A program made the translations under genes and the position numbers. DNA of 64,000 bases, taken from contig NZ_OBEL01000001.1 in assembly GCF_900215605.1 (NCBI RefSeq), positions 1,178,001 through 1,242,000 on the forward strand, written 5' to 3'. The notes beneath the pieces are model-generated. The model did not search any database. It saw only the letters and a list, made by a program, of their open reading frames with translations, and was not told the origin of the DNA. This DNA comes from Cohaesibacter gelatinilyticus. GTDB taxonomy: Bacteria; Pseudomonadota; Alphaproteobacteria; Rhizobiales; Cohaesibacteraceae. Shown in pieces: positions 23,409 through 49,636 of this stretch. The stretch's first letter is position 1. Every line of letters begins with the position of its first letter.

Positions 23409-23544
23409 ATTTGGCTCCCCAGGCCGGACTCGAACCAGCGACCCAGCGATTAACAGTCGCTTGCTCTACCAACTGAGCTACTGGGGAAAACTTGGTAACC
23501 GCAACAAGGTAGAAACCTTGAGCGTTGATGAGGTGGTTTCTAAT
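23374..23544. repeat. Direct repeat copy 1 (tRNA-Asn unit)
   Basis: About 171 bases including terminator, tRNA-Asn and about 57 bases of upstream promoter DNA. It is matched by 26674-26844 at an offset of exactly 3300 bases, with about ten single-base differences, all outside the tRNA. The whole unit is duplicated, not only the tRNA 3' end. Confidence 0.9.
23412..23487 (-). tRNA. tRNA-Asn (GTT), copy 1
   Basis: 76 bases including an encoded CCA. Acceptor arms TCCCCAG/CTGGGGA pair fully. The D-loop GTAGCTCAGTTGGTAGAGC, anticodon loop CTGTTAA (anticodon GTT) and T-arm GGTTCGAGTCC are all canonical. Identical to the copy at 26712-26787. Confidence 0.97.
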
Positions 23545-26708: not shown

Positions 26709-26844
26709 ATTTGGCTCCCCAGGCCGGACTCGAACCAGCGACCCAGCGATTAACAGTCGCTTGCTCTACCAACTGAGCTACTGGGGAAAACTTGGTAACT
26801 GCAACAAGGTAGAAACCTTGAGCGTTGGTGAGGTGGTTTCTAAT
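26674..26844. repeat. Direct repeat copy 2 (tRNA-Asn unit)
   Basis: Partner of 23374-23544. Shares terminator, tRNA and upstream promoter DNA at a constant offset of 3300 bases. Confidence 0.9.
26712..26787 (-). tRNA. tRNA-Asn (GTT), copy 2
   Basis: Identical in all 76 bases to the copy at 23412-23487, including the encoded CCA and the CTGTTAA anticodon loop. Confidence 0.97.
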
Positions 26845-48792: not shown

Positions 48793-48911
48793 CCCAGATA
48801 AAACGAAAGCCCACCGGGGGAGGAACCGGTAGGCTTCGTTTCTTGTTTCAAAACTGGGAGGAGGTGTTTTGAAACCATCGGGCTTTTGGGAGGAGATAAA
48901 GCCCGAATTCC
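48793..48911 (-). ncRNA. CcsR/cuckoo-type small RNA region with three CUCCUCCC loops
   Basis: Directly after the DUF1127 stop (minus strand) come three hairpins. Hairpin 1: cgggcttt/aaagcccg (48879-48905), minus-strand loop ATCTCCTCCCA. Hairpin 2: perfect ten-base arms gtttcaaaac/gttttgaaac (48845-48875), loop ACCTCCTCCCA. Hairpin 3: accgg/ccggt extended by an imperfect stem (48802-48840), loop TTCCTCCC, followed by a T-run as terminator. Anti-Shine-Dalgarno motifs in loops, placed behind a DUF1127 gene, are the hallmark of the CcsR RNAs of Rhodobacter and the wider alphaproteobacterial cuckoo RNA family. They may bind ribosome-binding sites or sequester a regulator. Ends are approximate. Confidence 0.82.
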
Positions 48912-49064
48912 TTATTTGCCAGCAGCGCGGCGGGCAACAAACTCGATATCACCGCGGCCAATGCCTAGATCATTCAGATCGCGGGTGCTCAGGCGGCTGA
49001 GTTCGGAGACAGTGTTGCGGTAATTACGCCACTGCCGATAGTTTTTCACGACATTATCAAACAT
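48912..49064 (-). CDS. Small DUF1127 protein (CcaF1-like)
   Basis: 50 residues beginning MFDNVVKNYRQWRNYRNTVS and continuing ELSRLSTRDLNDLGIGRGDI, the standard DUF1127 pattern (YRRTxxELxxLsxreLxDLGIxRxDI). Arg-rich, soluble. AAGGAAATGAG precedes the ATG. In Rhodobacter sphaeroides the DUF1127 protein CcaF1 binds RNA and affects maturation of the CcsR RNAs transcribed with it; the same arrangement is seen here, with the first hairpin starting six bases after the stop. Probably stress-induced. Confidence 0.92.
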   Translation of the reverse strand: MFDNVVKNYRQWRNYRNTVSELSRLSTRDLNDLGIGRGDIEFVARRAAGK

Positions 49065-49636
49065 TGCTCATTTCCTTGTGGTTATGCAACGTGGCACAAT
49101 CTCTTGCGATGCTCTGTGGCCTCGCTTTGTTGAAAATAGATATAATATGATTTGAAAAATTTTGCACCGCACAATATTGCATAGCTGTTTTGCAAGACAT
49201 GCATTCCTTGAATACATATTATCTCTGGACAAATATGAACAGAATTATACCGCGTTGATTCTCAAAGGTTTAATAGTATTGAAAATCTGAAGATCAGACA
49301 TTTCAGCCATTTGGAATAATATGCTGTCAATGGGTATGAAAAGCACTTGAAACGAAAATAAATGAATTTCGAGGGAACATGGATGTGAGTTTGGGGCTGT
49401 TGGAAAAGGTGCTTGAATAAAATGCAGGCAATGTGAAAATTTATAAAAACAGACAATGATGCTTATCGGTTCAAGTGAAAATCCGAGCTAATACAATAAC
49501 CAGGATCAGCGGTTGTTCGTGTGTCAAAGCTGACTGATATTGGAACCACCAAATTCAACCAATAATGACTAAGGCTTTGTACCTAACTCAAAGGACAAAG
49601 CCCAGATCTCAAGTCAGATATCATCTATTGAGCTAG
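49065..49636. other. AT-rich region without recognised genes
   Basis: About 570 bases. The right part before 49064 must hold the promoter of the DUF1127/sRNA transcript; AT-rich blocks occur near 49135-49150 and 49190-49240, but I could not fix -35/-10 boxes. At 49573-49602 the arms ggctttgt/acaaagcc may end the uvrA transcript. The open frame at 49262-49456 has no family features. Confidence 0.35.

Follow-up and report, generated by a model that had tools for sequence, protein, structure and literature searches.

A putative LsrB/VtlR-type promoter precedes a short DUF1127 gene and its 3'-end alpha-r14 RNA in Cohaesibacter gelatinilyticus

Introduction

Alpha-r14 RNAs consist of three hairpins with CCUCCUCCC loops on variable stems (PMC10746234, PMC7143759), and families of three and four hairpins were described in 2011 (PMC3927594). 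According to the report on NfeR1 (Smr14C2, RF02344), the S. meliloti RNA has its own promoter, its anti-Shine-Dalgarno loops silence mRNAs, and the three loops are redundant in action (PMC10746234). The NfeR1 promoter carries an LsrB site, TGCA-N6-GCAT, at −72 to −60; LsrB binds this box, activates the promoter, and is required for NfeR1 expression (PMC10746234).

Two other systems combine related parts. In the CIN1 locus of Rhodobacter sphaeroides, the gene for the DUF1127 protein CcaF1 is followed by four CcsR RNAs (CcsR1-4) behind an RpoHI/RpoHII promoter, and CcaF1 is described as aiding RNase E in maturing the neighbouring RNAs. As defined in papers that cite the original work, cuckoo RNA/CIN1 loci have two to four hairpins with a conserved anti-Shine-Dalgarno loop and an adjoining short DUF1127 gene. 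The VtlR/LsrB regulon of Agrobacterium and Brucella comprises AbcR sRNAs and short DUF1127 proteins. The gene order trxB, vtlR, abcR has been published for Agrobacterium; VtlR of Agrobacterium binds to the promoter of a gene for a short protein, and in Brucella VtlR is a positive regulator of three DUF1127 genes (PMC7486931, PMC12595884). Redox sensing by Agrobacterium LsrB has been assigned to four cysteines. It is debated if DUF1127 proteins target RNA or proteins, and the short Agrobacterium proteins are described as acting via the sensor kinase PhoR (PMC12501420).

Here we analyze a locus of Cohaesibacter gelatinilyticus and compare it with these systems. The window is the whole 64-kb stretch of DNA that was analyzed, and the genome set comprised 31 genomes, its own and 30 relatives.

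Results

A DUF1127 gene followed by three hairpins

We confirmed the observation that a short DUF1127 gene on the minus strand is followed directly on its 3' side by an array of three hairpins with anti-Shine-Dalgarno loops, and the coordinates proposed in the original prediction held for both (Table 1). The ORF matched PF06568 at 54.1 bits against a Pfam cut-off of 23.3, and the best named matches of its protein are from Cohaesibacter MAGs. Compared with three close relatives (L002, L003, L004), its codons differ by 9, 8 and 17 silent and by 2, 2 and 4 residue-changing substitutions; this preponderance of silent changes shows that the ORF is under coding constraint. Upstream of the gene on the same strand is uvrA, a 234-aa ORF without a Pfam match adjoins the unit on the opposite strand, and downstream lies a GIDA-family gene (PF01134), which we take to resemble trmFO. 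The genome carries a second DUF1127 gene (G000:C1:193300, L083), whose locus had neither an Rfam match at E values up to 0.1 nor a box of the type described below within three mismatches. Elsewhere in the window, two tRNA genes about 3.3 kb apart (23415-23487 and 26715-26787) both score 67.9 bits with Rfam, possibly as the result of a duplication.

Table 1. Features of the DUF1127-alpha-r14 locus (window coordinates)
Feature	Position	Strand	Description	Basis
Conserved 26-nt promoter block including the box, TGCATGTCTTGCA AAACAGCTATGCA	49178..49203	minus	no mismatch to the search patterns	
LysR-type T-N11-A box TGCATGTCTTGCA, putative LsrB/VtlR site	49191..49203	minus	like the LsrB box of NfeR1	
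-10-like element TATTATATC, putative	49139..49147	minus	fixed spacing from the box	
DUF1127 small protein gene	48912..49064	minus	50-aa ORF, PF06568 match	
alpha-r14 (ar14, RF02344) sRNA	48802..48911	minus	73.3 bits, model 1-123 of 123	
Hairpin 1	48878..48906	minus	loop contains CUCCUCCC; CTCCTCCC at 48895-48888	predicted fold
Hairpin 2	48845..48875	minus	ten-pair stem; loop contains CUCCUCCC; CTCCTCCC at 48863-48856	predicted fold
Hairpin 3	48800..48842	minus	loop UUCCUCCC; TTCCTCCC at 48825-48818; would double as terminator	predicted fold

The first stem begins after 5 unpaired bases past the stop codon, within the ten bases originally given, and the fold contains the ten-pair stem expected of the middle hairpin. 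The last hairpin had been described as carrying a T-run; it is indeed terminator-like, but its T tail is imperfect. The minimum free energy of the array was −48.9 kcal/mol, compared to −29.2 ± 3.4 kcal/mol in 200 shuffles (z −5.9). By a rule that was fixed only after the feature was already known, three CCTCC-loop hairpins within 110 nt were found in 0 of 120 dinucleotide-shuffled strands, and a cluster of two in 2 of 120. The loop octamer taken alone was rejected as evidence: it occurs twice in the window, both times at the array, with 1.4 occurrences expected. The CCUCCUCCC motif is complete in loop 2 and reads UCUCCUCCC in loop 1, but unlike in NfeR1 the third loop is shortened to UUCCUCCC. 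This shortening is common to L098 and L099, L101 likewise reads TTCCTCCC at this place, and several other relatives that score above the ar14 cut-off deviate from the motif in one loop.

Membership in the alpha-r14 family

With its short DUF1127 gene adjoining three hairpins with anti-Shine-Dalgarno loops, the locus is of the broad cuckoo kind, and to this extent the Pfam match and the fold bore out the original prediction. Its narrower assignment to the CcsR RNAs failed when the covariance models were run: the CcsR1 model (RF02791) gave 25.8 bits where 65.3 are required, whereas ar14 gave 73.3 bits against a gathering score of 58.8, over the full length of the model. The array is a full-length member of the alpha-r14 (NfeR1) family and resembles NfeR1 in its three anti-Shine-Dalgarno hairpins, its variable stems, and its length. 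Based on the published family descriptions and the Rfam score, three loops are the rule in alpha-r14 RNAs and the array is found by a public model. It had been regarded as unusual for its three loops and as likely to escape family models; three- and four-loop families have been in print since 2011 (PMC3927594), and the ar14 score exceeds Rfam's own threshold.

The order of a DUF1127 gene and then anti-Shine-Dalgarno RNAs, probably on one transcript, is shared with the CcaF1-CcsR1-4 operon, and the association is in print for CIN1. The locus could accordingly be a CcsR-type operon, in which RpoH drives a DUF1127 gene induced by heat and oxidants together with CcsR RNAs. Apart from the model scores, the upstream region argues against such an operon. 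The best RpoH1-type site in the 336 nt upstream agreed with the consensus (that of S. meliloti RpoH1) in 8 of 13 letters, a chance level reached by 200 of 200 shuffles, and the conserved feature in this region is a LysR-type box at about the position found in NfeR1. CcsR membership is not supported, given the low CcsR1 score and the chance-level RpoH-type site, and we regard an RpoH-driven operon of this type as quite improbable. In place of the RpoH promoter and four CcsR RNAs of Rhodobacter, the Cohaesibacter locus has a LysR-type box and one three-hairpin unit.

Linkage of DUF1127 genes with alpha-r14 RNAs

Across the 31 genomes, ar14 scored above its cut-off at 39 places in 19 genomes. At 36 of these the RNA begins 21-89 nt past the end of a same-strand Pfam DUF1127 match; at a 37th (L147) there is a DUF1127-like ORF that Pfam missed, and at L143 and L144 no DUF1127 ORF was found. 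Conversely, 40 of 84 DUF1127 matches have a downstream ar14 match of any score, among the matches listed. The 80 named DUF1127 loci contain 117 over-cut-off ar14 matches, 21 of which directly follow a DUF1127 gene and 9 of which lie at 120-300 nt; the other 87 have no DUF1127 gene directly upstream, and the fusion is therefore lineage-bound. Many of the compared loci are from close relatives, so these conservation counts are not independent. We aligned 38 of the 39 over-cut-off places: both partners have changed in 11 of the 29 predicted stem pairs, and the loop columns are largely kept.

This pattern bears upon whether the hairpins are anything beyond a terminator or stabilizer at the 3' end of the DUF1127 mRNA, a role without action in trans for which hairpin 3 has the appropriate terminator-like form. 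Stabilization alone would not require loops to be kept while stems change in pairs. The array is also kept where the DUF1127 gene is degenerate or absent (see below), and loops of this family are reported to silence mRNAs in S. meliloti (PMC10746234). A purely structural role thus appears very improbable to us, and we favor an RNA that would act through its loops.

Other arrangements were noted in the survey. Seven genomes of the genus contain weak ar14 matches (L157-L163; 26.8-35.1 bits) without DUF1127, mostly with one or two CCTCC hairpins and in differing contexts. In Roseibium aestuarii (L047, 1656-1914) six CCTCCTCC-type motifs stand in series past a DUF1127 gene, and two ar14 matches there fall narrowly short of the cut-off (56.9 and 56.4 bits). 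In Breoghania corrubedonensis (L017, 546-1259) four over-cut-off ar14 copies stand in series upstream of a DUF1127 gene.

A conserved box in the promoter region

The putative LsrB/VtlR site lies upstream of the DUF1127 gene, in a 26-nt block that is kept across the genus. It reads TGCA-N6-GCAA, departing in its last letter from the published TGCA-N6-GCAT; it matches the published VtlR motif CAATGCAGCCATGCA in 12 of 15 letters and the pattern GCAT-N3-TG-N3-T in 5 of 7 set letters. The −10-like element begins 59 or 60 nt after the start of the box in 32 of 37 rows, a count that favors a fixed spacing because the search was restricted to 52-75 nt after the box. If this element is correctly identified, the usual geometry would put the box near −71 to −59, which roughly matches the spacing between LsrB box and promoter core in NfeR1.

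When one mismatch was allowed, a search of the 31 genomes gave 46 matches to the 26-nt pattern and none to the reversed-pattern control. Thirty-six of the 46 matches lie upstream of an over-cut-off ar14 and cover 36 of the 39 ar14 places, the exceptions being both G018 copies and the G012 copy, with two mismatches in its box. TGCA-N5/6-GCA occurs within 260 nt upstream in 68 of the 80 named DUF1127 loci, many of them from close relatives, with 2.96 expected from letter shuffles; 6 of the 21 adjacent DUF1127-ar14 pairs in these loci lack the strict box. Among 71 rhizobial ar14 copies without an upstream DUF1127 gene, the exact box was found 40-120 nt before the RNA in 14 (background 0.077, about 5 expected), and a box with at most one mismatch in 34 (background 0.245, about 17 expected). 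On these numbers the box is not a feature of alpha-r14 RNAs at large, and we rejected it as a general mark of the family.

Two observations would fit a stand-alone alpha-r14 gene driven from a promoter of its own within the DUF1127 gene, the latter being a mere neighbor: NfeR1 has its own promoter in S. meliloti (PMC10746234), and in L143 and L144, uvrA-locus orthologs from two genomes (G008 and G012) without a DUF1127 gene there, the box stands 88-91 nt ahead of the start of ar14. At the Cohaesibacter locus, however, the box precedes the DUF1127 gene, which unlike in NfeR1 sits between promoter and RNA, and the first stem follows the stop codon by 5 nt. The confined distance between DUF1127 gene and RNA in 36 of 39 places also speaks against a chance neighborhood. 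An E. coli-style promoter scan was uninformative: no site was returned for the minus strand, and the proposed promoter was missed as well. We consider a separate promoter for the RNA unlikely, and prefer a putative promoter ahead of the DUF1127 gene.

Boxes were also found at other positions. There is a further one-mismatch box at G000:C2:214600. A perfect match to the 15-letter VtlR motif precedes a DUF599 gene (L166, 1501-2347; G000:C1:1737026), and box and DUF599 gene (87% identical) occur together in two relatives (L197, L198), which suggests that the DUF599 gene may be a further LsrB target. In a genome of another family (L191; G024:C49:67665), two weak ar14 matches flank a box, and the same locus holds an LsrB ortholog that is 60% identical.

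Alpha-r14 copies at the uvrA locus

We compared the flanks of 37 ar14 loci of the genus and family, with the copy in the window and one G018 copy left out and the sequence of L098 too short to tell. Seventeen of the 37 cluster by shared flanking ORFs; the 234-aa ORF adjoins ar14 in all 17, and uvrA is found in 16. By contrast with ar14, which is present in all 17 copies, the protein gene varies. The DUF1127 ORF exceeds the Pfam cut-off in L095, L099, L100, L101 and L146; in L148-L156 the DLG stretch is missing from it, no more than 25 of 37 positions match, and its score is just at the cut-off. The remaining three copies are L147, where Pfam missed the ORF, and L143 and L144, where none was found. 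The box is readable in 16 of the 17 copies, with at most one mismatch in 15 and two in the G012 copy, and a G018 copy (L101) is without a good match. The RNA, and with it nearly always the box, thus persists where DUF1127 is degenerate or absent. Because the RNA outlives the gene, alpha-r14 is probably the one of the two products that is more strongly maintained at this locus.

An LsrB ortholog without cysteine

A single thioredoxin reductase gene (trxB) scored over the cut-off in the genome, and a LysR-type gene follows it; the region with both genes and the box and RNA described below is L206, 978-3270 (G000:C6:17500-22500). Among the matches listed, the best for the product of this gene were from Pannonibacter, Stappia, Agrobacterium sp. 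and Ensifer (71, 67, 63 and 60% identical; 464-415 bits), and the next match in any of these four genomes reached 124.5 bits at 32%, indicating an LsrB ortholog. Its closest PDB chain is 9hh1 (3e-128), a code that occurs in a paper on Agrobacterium LsrB. Behind the LsrB gene, L206 also contains a box with three mismatches and an AbcR/ar15-like RNA with one anti-Shine-Dalgarno hairpin, its ar15-like score of 28.6 bits being under the cut-off of 40. The order is the same as that published for trxB, vtlR and abcR in Agrobacterium.

The LsrB of C. gelatinilyticus contains no cysteine. In a set of 21 sequences, none was found in this protein and in those of four others of the genus, and one (position 190) in 12 of the genus; outside the genus there are none in Pannonibacter and Stappia, four in Agrobacterium sp., and three in Ensifer. 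No LsrB match was obtained in G005, a 64% complete genome. The published thiol redox switch cannot operate in the C. gelatinilyticus protein, because it lacks cysteine.

Discussion

The array is an ordinary member of the alpha-r14 family, and the informative part of the locus is its promoter and regulator; what is new here is the proposed wiring of the locus, the RNA being a further member of a known family. We found no paper that joins DUF1127, alpha-r14 and LsrB in one unit, in a literature search whose reach did not extend to the original cuckoo, the 2021 CcaF1, the 2017 NfeR1 and two Agrobacterium papers.

We think it likely that the locus is a transcription unit of two parts, the short DUF1127 gene and the alpha-r14 RNA in its 3' end, behind an LsrB/VtlR-type promoter, with LsrB activating a single transcript from which a processed RNA would block Shine-Dalgarno sites. 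The parts that can be read from the DNA are the box and its spacing to the −10-like element, the gene, the covarying hairpins and the LsrB ortholog, together with their conservation. LsrB, encoded behind trxB, would bind the TGCA-N6-GCA box near −70 and activate a sigma-70-type promoter. A single transcript would then run through the DUF1127 gene and end at hairpin 3, the DUF1127 protein would be translated from it, and an RNase E-type cut near the stop codon would free an alpha-r14 RNA of about 110 nt. We infer activation, translation and cutting from the anatomy of the locus and from its relatives. By analogy to NfeR1, the three loops may pair with the Shine-Dalgarno regions of target mRNAs and so block their translation.

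The unit resembles the VtlR/LsrB regulon of Agrobacterium and Brucella in having a LysR-type gene behind trxB and boxes before an ar15-like RNA and a short DUF1127 gene. It differs in additionally carrying alpha-r14, in the absence of cysteine from the regulator, and in an ar15 match that stays under the cut-off. Our more far-reaching interpretation is a tentative one, which we hold at somewhat less than even: that in the Cohaesibacter/Stappia group a cysteine-free LsrB, and not a redox switch, drives the DUF1127-alpha-r14 unit, and that this unit forms a bridge from the operon of DUF1127 plus cuckoo RNA to the independent sRNA of NfeR1 type, promoter and sRNA being kept while the protein gene decays and disappears. 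By such a loss at the uvrA locus, the 3' end of an mRNA would become a stand-alone sRNA gene.

The cysteine-free LsrB raises the question of which signal is sensed. Close relatives that retain the RNA and a recognizable box, with a degenerate protein gene or none, offer a natural comparison. If the proposed wiring is true, LsrB, short DUF1127 proteins and alpha-r14 RNAs, which are usually studied apart, would be one unit in this lineage.
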